DNA of 64,000 bases from Pontibacter cellulosilyticus (GTDB lineage: Bacteria > Bacteroidota > Bacteroidia > Cytophagales > Hymenobacteraceae): assembly GCF_014306105.1 (NCBI RefSeq), contig NZ_JACRVF010000001.1, positions 1 through 64,000 of the forward strand, written 5' to 3'. How positions within the stretch are numbered: position 1 is the first letter of the stretch; each line of letters starts with the position of its first letter. The notes beneath the pieces were generated by a model. It saw only the letters and a list, made by a program, of their open reading frames with translations, had not been told where the DNA came from and searched no databases. Of this stretch, positions 28,268 to 36,657 are shown piece by piece. The position numbers were made by a program, and so were the translations under genes.

Positions 28268-28906
28268 TTATTCTTCCGGCTCTTCGTACGTGTCGAGCTT
28301 GATTTTCTCAATCATCAGGTAGTTCTTAAACTGATGGATCATGCGGTCCATCTCCTTCTCCTTGGTGGCAAGCGCCTCTACTTCTTCATCTGATGTCTGC
28401 AGCACAGGGCGCAGTTTGTAAAGGCTGTCCTGTAATTGCGGAATAGCTGCCTCGGTATGTTCTCTCAGCTCTTCGTTTGGCTGTGTATGCAGGCTCTGCT
28501 CCAGCTCCTGGATATACATCTCGAGGAACTCAGCCATATGCCACGGGTTGTTTGGTTTGTTCCAGGTAAAGGTGGTGTTGCAGCGGCGGCAGCGGTAGGT
28601 GTTGCACTTCCAGCCATGCTCGTTGGTGGCAACGCCATTCTTCTTCAGCATATCAGCTTTTCCGCACTTGGGGCATTGGGCGTTATCCTCAATTACCTTC
28701 TCCAGGCGTTCTCGCTTATCCAGTATAGCAGCACGGTTTTCAGCATGTTTGTAAAGCTGTGCCTCTAAGTTCTGGCAAGCATTGGTAAGTTGCTCATGCT
28801 CTTGGCTCAGTTCTCCCGTCTCCATCAATAAAGTGGCACGCTTGCTGAAAAAGCGTATCAGTTTTATCAATTCCCTCTCGTTTGCCTTAAGTGCTGTAGT
28901 GTTCAT
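28268..28906 (-). CDS. coiled-coil protein with a central zinc ribbon
   Basis: 212 residues, soluble. Residues 1-75 and 120-200 are charged, heptad-like helices; between them sits a four-cysteine ribbon (CPKCG, then CRRC about 28 residues later) with GWKCNTYRCRRCNTTFTW. The layout, two coiled coils folding back around a ribbon, recalls nucleic-acid or complex scaffolding proteins such as the C4-type zinc ribbon family, but no specific function is known. The ribbon contains an extra Cys (WKCN), so one may be free. Monocistronic, with a TACCTTTG box just upstream. Confidence 0.65.
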   Translation of the reverse strand: MNTTALKANERELIKLIRFFSKRATLLMETGELSQEHEQLTNACQNLEAQLYKHAENRAAILDKRERLEKVIEDNAQCPKCGKADMLKKNGVATNEHGWKCNTYRCRRCNTTFTWNKPNNPWHMAEFLEMYIQELEQSLHTQPNEELREHTEAAIPQLQDSLYKLRPVLQTSDEEVEALATKEKEMDRMIHQFKNYLMIEKIKLDTYEEPEE

Positions 28907-31333: not shown

Positions 31334-32260
31334 ATGGCAAAGCAGATGGACCTGTGGCCTGAAAACAAGGCTACTTACGAGGAGGAGATGGCTTTGGAAA
31401 GTATAAAGAAGATTAAAAAGCCAGCTGTCAGGTACAAAGAACCAGCAAAGCGCACAGCAGTCAAAAAGCCGGCGAAACCAAGAAAACCACGAGGTAAAAA
31501 GAAACAGCAAAAATCATCGAAACCCTTCTGGATAGGCGTTGCCGTGCTGGCAGTTATTGCCATGGTAGTGCTGTACGTGGAGTTTGTAGCAGATAAAAAA
31601 GAACCTGTTTGGCCGGAAGGGCACAGCCCTATGGGCAATACCTTGCTAGGTGTGGATGTATCGCGGTATCAGCGAAAAGTAGAATGGGACAAAGTGAAGG
31701 CAAACGATGTATCCTTTGCTTTTGTGAAAGCAACGGAGGGCGAAAAGTTAAAAGACACCTATTTCGACCGAAACTGGGAAAACACAGGCAAGGCCAGCAT
31801 CATAAGAGGGGCATATCATTTTTACCTGCCTCACCTGAAACCTGATGTGCAAGCTAAGAATTTCATCAACACAGTTACATTGGGCCCCGGAGACCTGCCG
31901 CCCGTGCTGGATGTGGAGGTGAGGGGCAAGATGCCACTTAACCATTTCCGGGGCGACCTGAAGGAATGGCTGGTAAAAGTAGAGCGTGCCTACGGGGTTA
32001 AACCCATCATTTATACCGGTTATAGTTTTTACAGAGACTACCTGGAGGGCTACTTTGACGAGTATCCGCTCTGGATCGCCCACTACAATGTAAAGGAGCT
32101 GAAACTGCAGAAAGATGAAAGAACTCTTCTCTCTTTCTGGCAACACACCGACAAAGGCTCTATAGAGGGAATTAAGGGCAGCGTAGACTGTAACATATTT
32201 TACGGCAGCATGCGTGAGCTAAAAAGGTTTTGTATTCAGCCGCCAGTTGCCAGAAACTAA
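31334..32260 (+). CDS. membrane-anchored GH25 lysozyme
   Basis: 308 residues. A Lys/Pro-rich cytoplasmic N-terminus (to about 63), one membrane helix at about 65-84, then a GH25 barrel from about 104: LLGVDVSRYQ with D108, FAFVKATEG, AYHFYLP, the catalytic-type DVE in PPVLDVEVRG, and the terminal VDCNIFYG. It should hydrolyse the glycan of peptidoglycan in the periplasm while fixed to the inner membrane. The long basic N-terminal tail is unusual for the family. Confidence 0.9.
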   Translation: MAKQMDLWPENKATYEEEMALESIKKIKKPAVRYKEPAKRTAVKKPAKPRKPRGKKKQQKSSKPFWIGVAVLAVIAMVVLYVEFVADKKEPVWPEGHSPMGNTLLGVDVSRYQRKVEWDKVKANDVSFAFVKATEGEKLKDTYFDRNWENTGKASIIRGAYHFYLPHLKPDVQAKNFINTVTLGPGDLPPVLDVEVRGKMPLNHFRGDLKEWLVKVERAYGVKPIIYTGYSFYRDYLEGYFDEYPLWIAHYNVKELKLQKDERTLLSFWQHTDKGSIEGIKGSVDCNIFYGSMRELKRFCIQPPVARN

Positions 32261-32292
32261 AAGGGCGCAGCCATCTGGCCGCGCCCTTTTAG
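32259..32292. terminator. bidirectional terminator
   Basis: AAAAGGGCGC and GCGCCCTTTT with a short inner stem around ATCT, between the GH25 stop (plus) and the disordered-protein stop (minus); both sides have A/T runs. Confidence 0.8.
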
Positions 32293-32308
32293 TTTTTATA
32301 CTTCCTGA

Positions 32309-33238
32309 CTAAAATCTGTCATAGTCTCTGTGTCTGTCCTGGTCAAAGTCTCTGTTCCAGGTTCTGCTACGGTTACGGCTACCCATAAACTCAGGCTTCT
32401 TTCTGGAGTCGAAGGCATGGTTCGGGTCATAGTCGTAATCGCTGTCGGAGTGGTGGATGCGAGTGTTCTCCGTATCCCGCGCGTAAGGGTCGTGGCGCTG
32501 ACGGCTACCATAATCTCCGCCGGAGTAGCTGCCTCTGCTGCTAGAACTGCTTCCGCTGTCGTAGGAGCCCATAGAGCCATAGTCGCCCATGCTGGAGCCT
32601 CTGCTGCTGCGGTTGTACCCGCTGCCCATGTAATTGCCCTCAGATCCACCGTAATTCGACGAGCCGTAGTTATCGCGGTCCCAGTAATTGCTGCTGTCGC
32701 TCATGCCTCGCTGGCCTCTGCTGCGGTCGCGGTCAAAGTTATAGCGGCCCTGGTCAGAGCCCTGGAATCTTCTGGAAACATCAGAGCCGTAAAGATCTTC
32801 TGGATTGTCATCGTAATTGTAACCGGAGCCGTGGCTGTCGTAGTCGCTGCTGTAGCCATAGGAACGGCGTCCGGAGGAAGAGCCTGAGCCCATGCCGCTC
32901 TCGTAGTGATAAAGCGAATCGGAGCTACCAGAACGCTGAGAAGGATAGCCGCCTCTACTGCTGCCATACCCTTGCGAGCCACCGTAGCTGCCCATATTAC
33001 CAAAGTTGCGGGAAGTGCTGTAGGTGTCGCCGCGGCCGCTTACATTTCGTGAGCCACCCATTTCATTGCCTTGGTTGCCCCAGGTGCCACCATAGCTTTC
33101 ATTACCATATCCTCCTCTAGCCGATGCGCCATAGTCATCAAAACGGTAGTTCGTGTCTCGTTCAGGATGTCTGTACTTTTCGGAGCGGCGCGTCTGATAG
33201 CTTCCTTCACCATACTGTTCTGGATGTCTTGTGTTCAT
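32309..33238 (-). CDS. intrinsically disordered Gly/Ser/Tyr/Arg-rich protein
   Basis: 309 residues with almost no hydrophobic residues apart from tyrosine. It is built of irregular G/S-Y-G/S units (for example NYGGSEGNYMGSGYNRSSRG, SMGDYGSMGSYDSG) mixed with Arg/Asp clusters and a charged C-terminal tail (DRHRDYDRF). No signal peptide, helix or domain is visible. The composition resembles low-complexity regions that undergo phase separation, or desiccation-type protectants; function unknown. It has its own terminator and starts 80 bases after the cellulose-synthase-like gene stop on the same strand. The frame is real: start codon, even codon use, and the antisense frames look random. Confidence 0.7.
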   Translation of the reverse strand: MNTRHPEQYGEGSYQTRRSEKYRHPERDTNYRFDDYGASARGGYGNESYGGTWGNQGNEMGGSRNVSGRGDTYSTSRNFGNMGSYGGSQGYGSSRGGYPSQRSGSSDSLYHYESGMGSGSSSGRRSYGYSSDYDSHGSGYNYDDNPEDLYGSDVSRRFQGSDQGRYNFDRDRSRGQRGMSDSSNYWDRDNYGSSNYGGSEGNYMGSGYNRSSRGSSMGDYGSMGSYDSGSSSSSRGSYSGGDYGSRQRHDPYARDTENTRIHHSDSDYDYDPNHAFDSRKKPEFMGSRNRSRTWNRDFDQDRHRDYDRF

Positions 33239-33318
33239 AGCTTTCGTTTTTAAGGTTGTAAATTCGATTTTACATTATTCCTTAACGAAAGACGGGAGGA
33301 GTAGTTAACCTGTTTTGC

Positions 33319-35139
33319 TTATTCGTGCTGGCTGCGCTTTAACTTTTCCGAATGAAAGAAGGCGGAGAGTGAACTTGGCTCCGGACGCATAGGATCCGCT
33401 TTAACTACTTTAGGTTGTAAATAGGCACTAAAATGACTTCGGCTGACAGTATAGCCTGCTGATACAAGGGCTGCTCCTATCACAAGCACGTATGCTGCGT
33501 ACCGGATGCCATCGTAAAAGCCATGACGGGTGCGGTGAATCATCAGCCTGAGCGGCATAATTACCGGCTGAAGCAGGGAAGCATGCAGCAGATTGCGCCG
33601 CACCCATTCCATAAAACGTTCCTGACCAATAACAACGATAGTACCTACAATGGCTACGTTGGTTAACGCAAATAATGACATCATCTGCACATAAGGGTTG
33701 TTATACACGTGCCCATACTTGTGCTGGCTAAAGATGATAGCACCTATACTTAGCAGGCAAATTAGTATGTTAGGCAAGCTGAGTAAGAAGTTGTTCTTTG
33801 GCTTGTCATCTTTCGGAGTTGGGATGTAAGGCACTTTAATCCGAAGGATAGAGTAAATGAGCCCTAAGCCAAAAACCCACCAGGTGCCGGTACGAAGTAT
33901 ACCGCCAAACATATGAAAGCCTTTTTCACTTTTCTCGTGGTACCACCGCTGCGCAAACTGCCTTATGCAGATAGAAATACACAGGAACGGCATAAACATC
34001 ACGATAAACTCACCCAGCGACACATACCACGGAAACTCAGCAAGTATAAGCGCCAGTACGGGAATCAGGAAATCAACGAAGTTGAATACCCCGAACAGGT
34101 AGTATAGCGGAAGTGTAAAGTAATGTATTTTCTGGCGCCAGGTAAATTTCGAGAATAGCTTGGGGTAAACCGCAAACAGCAACTCAAAGGTGCCGCGCGC
34201 CCATTTTATCTGCTGCTTGTAATAAGAAGCCAGCGTTGCCGGTACAAGTCCTCTGGTGAGTATCTTGGGTACGTAGGCAGATTTCCAGCCCTTGGCGTGT
34301 AGTTGCATGGCCGTATGCATGTCTTCAGAGAGACCAGCCGCATGCCCTCCAATGCTATCCAGTGCTTTTCTGCGGAAGGTACAGTTGGCTCCGATTGCCT
34401 GCACAGTGCCGTAGCTGTTCATGCCCATCATCATAGGGCCGTAAAAACTGTAGGTTTGCTCTGCGGCGCCGTAAGCTATAAGACTTTCCTTTTGGTTGCT
34501 GTACGCTTGCACCACCTGCACAAAGCCAACATCCGGGTCTTCGAAGTATGGCAGCACCTCATCCAGAAATTCAGGTTGTGGCACATGGTCCGGGTCAAGT
34601 ATAAGGCAAATATCGCCGGTAGCCTGTTTCAGAGCATTATTAATGTTGCCAGCCTTAGCGTCGATTTTTTTAGTGCGTGTTACATGTATAACTCCCAGTC
34701 GCCGACAGGCAGCTTTCAGAGCAGGGTCGTCACCTTCATCACACAAGTAAGTAGTATGCGGGTATCTGATATTTTGTATAGCCTCTAAAGTGCCGATTAT
34801 CATACTATGCGGCTCTCCGGGGCAGGCTGTCGTTAAAACGTCTACTTTATACTTTGATTTGAGATTAGGCTTAATAGGAACGCTGACGTCATAGTAATGG
34901 TACCATTCGTGCAGCGTACGGAGAAGCTTAAAGCCAAGGGCTGTAGTTAACAGCCAGAACAGCGGTCCGTAGCCTACATGGTCTTCATCCAGAAACCAAT
35001 ACAGGAATAACCCCATCGTCAGAAGACCCAGCAGTATCATTAGTCGAATAGCTCTAACATCCCTAGGGTCAGGAGTTAGTTCCATGTCCGAACGGTTGTG
35101 CTGAGTGGTCTGATGTTCCGGGCTAGTAGAAAACATCAT
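33319..35139 (-). CDS. cellulose-synthase-like GT2 processive glycosyltransferase
   Basis: 606 residues. Two N-terminal helices (about 30-75), the GT-A domain with YLCDEGDDP, DPDH (D182, D184), LSEDMHTAMQLHAKGWKSAY (the TED-type base) and QQIKWARG in place of QxxRW, then about six C-terminal helices. No PilZ domain is visible, so direct c-di-GMP control is not expected. The K in QQIKW is a conservative change. It likely polymerises and extrudes a beta-glucan or similar polymer. The divergent lipoprotein glycosidase at 35332 supports a small polysaccharide locus; a BcsB-like partner is missing. Confidence 0.85.
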   Translation of the reverse strand: MMFSTSPEHQTTQHNRSDMELTPDPRDVRAIRLMILLGLLTMGLFLYWFLDEDHVGYGPLFWLLTTALGFKLLRTLHEWYHYYDVSVPIKPNLKSKYKVDVLTTACPGEPHSMIIGTLEAIQNIRYPHTTYLCDEGDDPALKAACRRLGVIHVTRTKKIDAKAGNINNALKQATGDICLILDPDHVPQPEFLDEVLPYFEDPDVGFVQVVQAYSNQKESLIAYGAAEQTYSFYGPMMMGMNSYGTVQAIGANCTFRRKALDSIGGHAAGLSEDMHTAMQLHAKGWKSAYVPKILTRGLVPATLASYYKQQIKWARGTFELLFAVYPKLFSKFTWRQKIHYFTLPLYYLFGVFNFVDFLIPVLALILAEFPWYVSLGEFIVMFMPFLCISICIRQFAQRWYHEKSEKGFHMFGGILRTGTWWVFGLGLIYSILRIKVPYIPTPKDDKPKNNFLLSLPNILICLLSIGAIIFSQHKYGHVYNNPYVQMMSLFALTNVAIVGTIVVIGQERFMEWVRRNLLHASLLQPVIMPLRLMIHRTRHGFYDGIRYAAYVLVIGAALVSAGYTVSRSHFSAYLQPKVVKADPMRPEPSSLSAFFHSEKLKRSQHE

Positions 35140-35331
35140 GTATGCGTATTCTTAAAGGGTTTCAAATTTTCTTCGCAGAATCTCTCCGGGGCTAACATCA
35201 CATTTTTCATATTCTGTAACTGTGAACATCTGCACCCTATCCTCGTAACTATACTTGCCGGATTCATAAAAGTTGAAGTTTAGTCAAAAAAATATTATAA
35301 TTTCTGCATATCGTCATACCAATTCATCCTT

Positions 35332-36657
35332 ATGTCGAATTTGAAACTATCTATAATCGTTATACCTGTTTTTATACTTTTTATTCTCTTTTGGGTTGGC
35401 TGTACCTCCAAACCAGCCATACAGGATAAGTATGTGGCAAAAAGCCGCAAAGTAGAGGTAATAAAGGAAAAAGATGGGAAGTACGTGCTGTATAGGAATG
35501 GAAAGCCCTATTACATTAAAGGGGCTGCCGGGTATGACTATTATGATCGCGTGGCAGCCTATGGCGGAAATTCGGTGCGGGTGTGGGATACCGAAGATGC
35601 CCAACGCATATTGGATGAAGCCCACAAGAACGGACTGACTGTTACACTTGGCCTGTGGATGCAACGTGAGCGTGAAGGGTTTAATTACTACGATAAGGAA
35701 CTAGTGCAGCAGCAAAAGGAGGAGCTAAAGCAGGTTGTACTCAAGTATAAAGACCACCCGGCTCTGCTGATGTGGTGCGTGGGCAATGAGCTTTATGCAG
35801 AGGGATCTAATGTGAAAGTATGGGATGCCGTGAACGGTATAGCCGAAATGATACACGAGGTAGATCCGGACCATCCTACCACTACCACGGTTATGAACGT
35901 GCCCTTAAAAGTAATTAATTTGATTGTGGATCGTTGCCCCGCATTGGATATCCTGTCAATCAATTCTTTTGCCGGATTACATAATATGCACAGCGAGATG
36001 GCACAGACAGACTGGAAAGGGCCCTATGTTGTGTCGGAGTTTGGAGGTCGCGGCTATTGGGAGTCTTACCTAACCTGGTGGAATGCACCTATCGAGCAAA
36101 CAAGCTCAGAGAAAGCGGAATTTACCCGAAAGTTCTATACGGACGTTATTCGGAAAGATACGACACATTGCCTTGGCTCGTACGTGTTCCTATGGGGCGA
36201 AAAGCAAGAAACTACACCAACCTGGTTTAGTACGATAAATACTAAAGGTGAAGAAACAGAGATGATACAAGTAATGGGGGAACTATGGAGCGGCAATGAA
36301 GCAGATAACAAAGCACCTTACATCGCATACCTTAAACTAAATCACAAATTTGCCTTCGATCAGATCTACCTGCGGCCTAAGCAAGCATATCTTGGGGCTG
36401 TTTATACTTTTGATCCCGATAAAGATTCGCTGCAATTGCACTGGGAAGTACTACCAGAGATAAAATCAGAAGACGGCAACACCGGAGAAGAGATAACGCC
36501 GCCACCTATCCACGGCCTTCTGTCAAATACGGGCAACGATAAACTTATACTTACCACACCGCAAAAAGAGGGAGCTTACCGGCTATATGTATATGTGCGT
36601 GACGGCAAAGGTAAATTAGCCACAGCCAATATTCCTTTTTATGTGACGAAGCAGTGA
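35332..36657 (+). CDS. lipoprotein glycoside hydrolase with GH2/GH5-like TIM barrel
   Basis: 441 residues. Hydrophobic leader and lipobox ending FWVGC, Cys24. The barrel (about 45-320) holds FYIKGAAG-like opening YYIKGAAGYD, GGNSVRVWD, the acid/base Glu in MWCVGNELY and the nucleophile Glu in YVVSEFGGRG, the arrangement of clan GH-A enzymes. A beta-sandwich domain of about 100 residues follows (LGAVYTFDPDKDSLQLHWEV). It should sit on a membrane facing the periplasm or outside and cut a beta-linked glycan, plausibly the product of the divergent synthase. Substrate unknown. Confidence 0.75.
   Translation: MSNLKLSIIVIPVFILFILFWVGCTSKPAIQDKYVAKSRKVEVIKEKDGKYVLYRNGKPYYIKGAAGYDYYDRVAAYGGNSVRVWDTEDAQRILDEAHKNGLTVTLGLWMQREREGFNYYDKELVQQQKEELKQVVLKYKDHPALLMWCVGNELYAEGSNVKVWDAVNGIAEMIHEVDPDHPTTTTVMNVPLKVINLIVDRCPALDILSINSFAGLHNMHSEMAQTDWKGPYVVSEFGGRGYWESYLTWWNAPIEQTSSEKAEFTRKFYTDVIRKDTTHCLGSYVFLWGEKQETTPTWFSTINTKGEETEMIQVMGELWSGNEADNKAPYIAYLKLNHKFAFDQIYLRPKQAYLGAVYTFDPDKDSLQLHWEVLPEIKSEDGNTGEEITPPPIHGLLSNTGNDKLILTTPQKEGAYRLYVYVRDGKGKLATANIPFYVTKQ

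Follow-up and report, generated by a model that had tools for sequence, protein, structure and literature searches.

A Predicted Disordered Tyr/Arg-Rich Protein of Pontibacter and a Probable Regulon of Disordered Proteins behind ECF-Sigma-Type Promoter Elements

Within the 64,000-nucleotide stretch of Pontibacter cellulosilyticus DNA analyzed here (the window), an open reading frame termed gene A encodes a long chain dominated by serine, glycine, arginine, and tyrosine. A preliminary description, made from the letters of the sequence, took it for a fully disordered protein, composed of G/S-Y-G/S units with Arg and Asp patches, that would act in the cytoplasm, perhaps in drying or cold stress, or coat something made by the adjoining cellulose-synthase-like gene. 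Long Tyr/Arg prion-like proteins are thought of mainly as eukaryotic; Pontibacter is a genus of the Bacteroidota. The features on which the following sections rely are collected in Table 1.

Table 1. Features of the window and of other loci considered in this work. Positions without a prefix are those of the window; C1 and C9 are contigs of the own genome (k, kilobase position).
Feature	Position	Strand	Remarks
Zinc-ribbon-like protein	28268..28906	(-)	in sister genera, a homologue lies close to the single-gene relative
Inverted repeat	32254..32295	.	20-nt arms, 95% complementary, 2-nt gap; between converging genes
Gene A, Tyr/Arg/Gly/Ser protein, predicted disordered	32309..33238 (including stop codon)	(-)	309 aa; ATG start
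Conserved block YMGSGYNR, residues 203-210	32609..32632	(-)	Y203 50/51, Y208 50/50, R210 50/51
Conserved block, residues 148-160 (DLYGSDVSRRFQG)	32759..32797	(-)	R157 49/51, F158 46/51, L149 42/48
Core block, residues 72-97 (TYSTSRNFGNMGSYGGSQGYGSSRGG here)	32948..33025	(-)	near-invariant in three sister genera as well as in Pontibacter
N-terminal conserved region, residues 18-65	33044..33187	(-)	RSERYRHPE, FDDYG, ARGGYGNE, and GTWGNQGNE blocks
ECF-sigma-type element AAC-N16-CGTT (AACTACTCCTCCCGTCTTTCGTT)	33284..33306	(-)	lies past the GT2 stop, 45 bp ahead of the gene A start codon (ATG)
Cellulose-synthase-like GT2	33319..35139	(-)	upstream of gene A, co-directional
GT2 synthase and divergent TIM-barrel glycosidase	33319-36657		next to gene A in some Pontibacter loci
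Genes B, C, and D, three clustered genes for predicted disordered proteins	L178 7962-10159 = C1:192.3-194.5k		B divergent from C and D
ECF sigma and cupin genes	L255 19556-19978, L256 182-730 = C1:879.5-880.7k
Promoter-found Tyr/Arg protein, predicted disordered	C1:881k		284 aa
Promoter-found Tyr/Arg protein, predicted disordered	C1:907k		244 aa
Promoter-found Tyr/Arg protein, predicted disordered	C1:1336k		215 aa
Promoter-found Tyr/Arg protein, predicted disordered	C1:1337k		121 aa
Promoter-found Tyr/Arg protein, predicted disordered	C1:1707k		278 aa
SWFGD protein (NF033157)	L264 17761-18666 = C9:177.8-178.7k		54.5 bits (cut-off 35)
Shortened gene A of another Pontibacter	L056 3980-4555		shortened at the N-terminus, one stop within the match

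Gene A and Its Distribution

The extent of the reading frame had been given exactly in the preliminary description, apart from its strand (minus), which was omitted. Gene A is a genuine gene, present as a single copy in its own genome. Its product contains 18.8% Ser, 16.5% Gly, 12.0% Arg, 10.7% Tyr, 10.4% Asp, 6.5% Asn, and 1% Lys, lacks Cys, and has 14% aromatic residues, a net charge of about zero, and a GRAVY of -1.70. The idea of G/S-Y-G/S units catches the flavor of this composition but is incomplete, as Arg, Asp, and Asn account for about 29% of the residues. Only two ORFs of at least 80 residues with less than 20% of L+I+V+F+A+M+C were found in 744 kb of the own genome, window included, a sample that comprises 598 non-overlapping ORFs of at least 100 residues. 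No Pfam or NCBIfam model matches the protein at E<=1, and no tandem repeats were detected in the window by TRF.

The protein is conserved in relatives. Homologues were found in 50/50 Pontibacter genomes and 1/150 other genomes among the 200 of the family that were searched (51 matches); the named relatives are Pontibacter in 16/16 cases, the best being P. aydingkolensis, with 76% in its best segment. A search of the order with a profile of the conserved core described below returned 30/390 genomes, two of which carry internal stops; 28 were taken as real, and all of these belong to the same family. A profile built from the proteins of other genera matched 58/150 genomes of the family, namely 33 Pontibacter and 25 from three sister genera (one of these 25 matches covers just a 46-codon frame), and a class-wide draw gave 1/395 matches, the own genome itself. 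In the comparisons that follow, the starts of gene A were trimmed to the Met closest to the RSERYR motif, and counts over 49 sequences omit L056 (a shortened gene A) and L067 (from another genus). At one sister-genus locus (L143), the single-gene relative appears as separate matched pieces; this irregularity and that of L056 (Table 1) read as frame breaks or assembly errors.

A spurious low-complexity ORF, or a chain left to functionless compositional drift, would fit the range of homologue lengths (233-372 aa among the 49 full sequences) and the divergence of most of the sequence outside the conserved blocks. However, dN/dS lies between 0.05 and 0.22 in 10 homologue pairs, which were chosen by hand and of which four have dS >1, indicating purifying selection. 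Together with the near-invariant core, the presence in all 50 genomes of the genus, and the conserved promoter element, this reduces the chance of a spurious ORF to practically nothing, and this candidate was rejected on the grounds of dN/dS and conservation.

Predicted Disorder and Conserved Blocks

The product of gene A is predicted to be disordered over its full length (mean pLDDT 43), in agreement with the first reading of the locus. With an alignment of 37 sequences, AlphaFold2 returned a mean pLDDT of 43.2, zero helices of 4 residues, and zero strands of 3 residues, and with 7 rows for one of the sister-genus proteins encoded by a single gene (see the next section), it returned a mean pLDDT of 40.6 and one helix of 5 residues; both alignments are shallow, and such values are not proof of disorder. 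A folded region was sought in these two proteins and rejected, given their mean pLDDT of 43 and 41.

The chain is not uniformly featureless, as it contains near-invariant sequence blocks, which the preliminary description had missed. The core TYSTSRNYGNMGSYGGAQGFGSSRGG, of 26 residues, is nearly fixed in 51 aligned sequences, and most of the remaining chain varies by substitution, insertion, and deletion. Residues G80, M82-G87, Q89, G90, G92, R95, and G97 are identical in 51/51 rows, and the pattern MGSYGGxQG[FYW]G appears in 49/49 full-length A proteins and in 12/12 single-gene proteins. An MGSYGG-like string rarely arises by composition (152/200,000 shuffles), and composition would not fix its position. 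The RSERYR-like part of the N-terminal region is found in 48/49 A proteins and 0/12 single-gene proteins, and was seen in Pontibacter only. The near-invariant NYGNMGSYGGAQGFG core may constitute a specific contact site, either for a partner or for self-assembly.

Sequence blocks conserved without a fold would also be compatible with a surface or matrix-forming protein exported without a classical signal, and Gly/Ser/Tyr-rich chains do occur in structural matrices. Nevertheless, neither a hydrophobic signal stretch at the N-terminus, whose absence had already been claimed, nor a lipobox or a C-terminal sorting domain was seen in gene A by eye, and the protein matches no family, which makes an exported matrix protein quite improbable. 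A cytoplasmic location is the preferred reading for the remainder of this work.

Genes A and B Correspond to Separate Portions of a Sister-Genus Protein

In the sister genera, the core belongs to proteins encoded by a single gene, which also carry the blocks YRGAYR, DDSRYEIYD, NYGNMAGSLSYG, and YDPMSG. In Pontibacter, a second gene, gene B, holds the blocks YRGAYR, NYGNMAGSLSYGYDG, and YDPLTG. This gene is present in 50/50 Pontibacter genomes searched, and in the own genome it lies ~160 kb away from gene A. The two sets of blocks do not mix: those of B occur in 0/49 full A proteins, and the core occurs in 0/35 distinct B proteins. Among the 12 single-gene proteins, all 12 hold the core, and the YRGAYR, AGSLS, and YDP blocks are found in 10 each. 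Profile comparisons agree with this division, as the single-gene proteins match A from the core onward (E 2.7e-19) and B in their C-terminal part (E 2e-13), whereas A and B exhibit no relation to each other (probability 2.6%). Moreover, the B profile was detected in 15 genomes of other genera, always at the place of the single gene. These comparisons show that, at the level of sequence, A and B correspond to different parts of one sister-genus protein, and since they are two parts of one protein, they probably act together.

Gene B forms a cluster with two further genes for predicted disordered proteins, C and D, which is kept in 17/17 of the Pontibacter B loci read. Both C and D hold extended stretches that are nearly invariant (around NPNYDNPEEGDMYRNFDSRGNHGYRHDASYG in the case of D), and neither was found in the 14 genomes from other genera that were searched. 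Searches of Pfam and NCBIfam with B, C, and two of the single-gene relatives gave no match at E<=1, and gene D gave one weak NCBIfam match (E 0.22), below the cut-off.

An ECF-Sigma-Type Promoter Element

In the 64-kb window, the pattern AACC?-N15/16-CGTT[AT]A has a single match, the element upstream of gene A. Boxes of the form AAC-N16/17-CGTT precede gene A in 49/49 homologues (47 with N16 and two with N17), although the surrounding DNA is divergent, and in 41/49 of them CGTT lies 40-48 bp before the assumed ATG. The same element precedes gene B at 17/17 curated starts (15 N16, two N17) and at 34/35 starts of distinct B genes guessed automatically, as well as the single gene of the sister genera in 11/11 cases (five N16, six N17), a count from which one of the 12 single-gene proteins (L146) was left out. 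The background is 6/433 other upstream regions of 160 bp, with N16 in two. A scan for sigma-70 promoters and terminators gave nothing under its own limits.

The shared element would represent a working promoter, recognized by a sigma factor of the ECF type. Its form recalls the general stress response of other bacteria: the EcfG box is given as GGAAC-N16-CGTT, with AAC nearly invariant (PMC7083833), and the boxes of EcfG type as AAC and CGTT (PMC8103513). The stress role that had been suggested for gene A is probable in the light of this ECF-type element.

The element of gene C, AA[CT]-N18-CGTA, is akin to that of A and B but distinct from it and is found in 16/17 cases versus 26/531 in the background (N17-19), and gene D is devoid of the AAC-CGTT element. 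As D is without the element and C has a different one, more than one sigma factor may be involved.

A Probable Regulon of Predicted Disordered Proteins

The motif AAC-N16-CGTTWA is not enriched in the genome as a whole, with 56 sites versus 91 for the reversed control, so that it acquires meaning only from its position and its target. All 56 sites were read. A site was considered well placed if an ORF start follows it at 25-60 bp and if it does not fall within an ORF of more than 152 codons. These criteria were set after the table of sites had been seen, and the cut at 152 codons is one that keeps gene B and the gene at C1:1337k. Of the 18 well-placed sites, 11 precede ordinary ORFs and seven precede Tyr/Arg proteins predicted to be disordered, namely the five new ones in Table 1 together with A and B. 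The five promoter-found proteins, which were read in the own genome (loci L256, L257, L259, and L260), match no model of Pfam or NCBIfam at E<=0.01. Leaving A and B aside, 5/16 sites precede disordered proteins, with a binomial P of 1.8e-9 at a rate of 2/598, in which the two disordered ORFs include gene A itself. With other cuts, the result is 4/15 at 149 codons (P 1.7e-7) and 5/22 without any cut (P 1.1e-8).

A further member came from 680 kb of unselected DNA outside the window, where the one disordered ORF encodes an SWFGD protein and is preceded, at -33, by AAC-N16-CGTA. Its SWFGD domain sits inside a long Tyr/Ser/Arg chain predicted to be disordered. The search for CGTT could not have found this gene, because its element is of the CGTA form. 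The looser pattern AAC-CGT[TA] at -60 to -25 precedes 14/536 ordinary genes in the sample, eight of them with N16. In total, a promoter element of this type stands before the separate genes of no fewer than eight disordered proteins in this genome, seven with CGTT and one with CGTA. Gene A is one of a set, which the preliminary description had missed, and its membership in a regulon of disordered proteins is very probable on sequence grounds.

The disordered gene at C1:881k is followed downstream by an ECF sigma gene and then by a cupin gene, whose product may be a ChrR-like anti-sigma factor. This sigma factor was considered as the general regulator of the set and rejected: it was found in just 17/50 Pontibacter at E<=1e-30, and a disordered ORF lies near it in 4/17 of these, the own genome included, with three of the proteins resembling that of C1:881k by eye.

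The Neighborhood of Gene A

The preliminary description tied gene A to the GT2 gene at its side. In favor of an accessory of this polysaccharide synthase, such as a coat or matrix component, the GT2 gene lies ~80-390 bp upstream of gene A, on the same strand, in 28/50 Pontibacter loci. It is absent, however, from the flanks (1.4-4 kb) of the other 22/50 Pontibacter loci and of 9/9 loci of other genera, and gene A carries its own promoter element in 49/49 cases and no signal peptide that could be seen by eye. A polysaccharide role is unsupported, since GT2 is an optional neighbor and gene A has its own promoter-like element; a link of this kind was rejected on synteny, and we regard the accessory role as very improbable. 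The GT2 neighbor is, judging from gene order, incidental and lies outside the system, the preferred reading being that gene A belongs with the promoter-sharing set.

In one Pontibacter without a nearby GT2 (L044), a GT2 homologue was found ~5.7 kb upstream. The GT2 gene and the divergent TIM-barrel glycosidase gene next to it may form a portable unit. Other neighbors are a GH25 gene, in at least 36/50 loci, and a gene judged by eye to be racemase-like, in at least 37/50, both lower bounds because 30/50 loci had flanks of ~1.5 kb. Among the other 20 loci, whose flanks are longer, this last gene appears in 20/20, GT2 in 8/20, and the glycosidase in 6/20.

For the zinc-ribbon-like protein of the window, no family scores above a curated cut-off; a homologue of it lies close to the single gene of the sister genera. 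This suggests that gene A is the positional orthologue of that gene and occupies the ancestral position. Downstream of gene A, the inverted repeat is likely a bidirectional terminator.

Aromatic Spacing and the Possible Function of the Set

We propose that gene A encodes a cytoplasmic, fully disordered Tyr/Arg protein produced from an ECF-sigma-type, probably stress-induced, promoter. Once the sigma factor is released, the whole disordered set would be produced at the same time. Tyr and the other aromatics, at their even spacing and with some help from Arg, would then keep the chains in a common condensate of several components or in a hydrated protectant gel, which would shield the cell contents under stress, with A and B as the two halves of one scaffold. 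We give an even chance to the view that these Lys-poor, disordered Tyr/Arg proteins form a regulon induced by stress and serve as cytoplasmic condensate scaffolds or protectants. The more specific version, a "disorder regulon" of Pontibacter and its sister genera, in which one ECF-type switch makes unrelated Lys-poor Tyr/Arg proteins co-assemble as a stress condensate, with part of the scaffold encoded either as one protein or as A and B, is put forward more tentatively, as a plausible reading held at less than even confidence.

In prion-like domains, aromatic stickers are reported to be uniformly spread, with Tyr stronger than Phe and Arg in an auxiliary part (PMC10491635). The aromatic residues of gene A are more evenly spaced than in shuffled sequences (z -2.6), and z is below -1 in 49/49 homologues, versus a mean z of -0.04 in 381 ordinary proteins of the own genome, 68 of which are below -1 and one below -2. 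The ratio R/(R+K) is 0.93 for gene A compared to a mean of 0.41 in the same controls. Ten disordered proteins of the own genome exhibit R/(R+K) of 0.69-1.0 and aromatic-spacing z of -1.4 to -2.8. Arg, by contrast, shows no even spacing in gene A (z 0.04), and the charges occur in clusters (family mean z +1.7). The sticker-and-spacer pattern first suggested thus holds for Tyr and the other aromatics but not for Arg.

The alternative that the proteins stay dispersed as soluble protectants of the hydrophilin type, binding water and shielding during water loss without forming condensates, draws on the same composition. Hydrophilins are defined by glycine above 6% and hydrophilicity above 1, and gene A, with 16.5% glycine and a GRAVY of -1.70, falls within this composition. 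In yeast and E. coli, proteins of this class, marked by much glycine and strong hydrophilicity, are reported to have an expression that tracks osmotic stress (PMC4190154). Evenly spaced aromatics at 14%, a net charge near zero, and the preference for Arg over Lys favor cohesion over solubility, however, and the invariant core implies specific contacts, which leaves dispersed hydrophilins rather unlikely, and a cohesive condensate or gel as the preferred state.

Arg may also point to nucleic acids. A disordered stress protein that binds them, as an RNA chaperone or nucleoid compactor resembling the RGG parts of eukaryotic RNA-binding proteins, would be in keeping with 12% Arg in a Tyr/Gly context and with the strings SRGGY and ARGGYG in the conserved blocks. 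Against this, only three RGG/GRG/GGR triplets are present in A and none in 6/10 of the disordered proteins, and the net charge of gene A is about zero; nucleic-acid binding is unlikely. Protein-protein cohesion through aromatic residues remains our preferred basis for the set.

Comparison with Known Systems

Stress protectants that are disordered, like condensate domains, are already known kinds of proteins, and bacterial liquid-liquid phase separation and desiccation aggregates have been treated in a review (PMC10534466). In the open-licence literature searched, no account was found of the proteins described here, of the domain named SWFGD, or of a regulon of this kind.

The closest regulatory likeness is to the EcfG regulon of Alphaproteobacteria, with promoters of the form AAC-N16-CGTT shortly before gene starts; boxes of this type (AAC, N16-17, CGTT) precede gene A in 49/49 cases versus 6/433 in the background. 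Nevertheless, the host of gene A is a Pontibacter and not an alphaproteobacterium, and EcfG is described as exclusive to the Alphaproteobacteria (PMC3892343). The Pontibacter -35 box is furthermore without GG, and, unlike in the EcfG regulon, a large share of the targets recognized in Pontibacter are disordered proteins.

The proteins themselves recall the prion-like domains of FET and related proteins (FUS and hnRNPA1) in their Tyr/Gly/Ser/Arg composition, in the preference for Arg over Lys, and in aromatics that are even and, for gene A, more so than in shuffles. They differ in that gene A is, by prediction, wholly disordered, contains 10% Asp, and holds a long near-invariant motif, and no Pfam match at E<=1 was found in it to the RRM and zinc-finger domains of the FET proteins (FUS/EWSR1/TAF15). 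Hydrophilins and LEA proteins share with gene A a high glycine content, extreme hydrophilicity, and predicted disorder. Unlike these, however, gene A is Lys-poor and aromatic-rich, has no helix of at least 4 residues in its model, and gives zero matches to LEA Pfam families at E<=1. As for the SWFGD proteins (NF033157), the member in the own genome is similar to gene A in composition, aromatic spacing, and promoter element, but gene A itself does not match NF033157 (0 NCBIfam families).

Significance

The disordered proteins of this set would be a possible source of protectants for drying and preservation unlike LEA and tardigrade proteins. Natural variants are available for comparison, since the scaffold occurs as one piece or as two, and its members may be Tyr-rich or Tyr-poor. 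If the proposal is true, a programmed stress condensate in bacteria would become directly testable in Pontibacter, with one sigma factor and a handful of genes.
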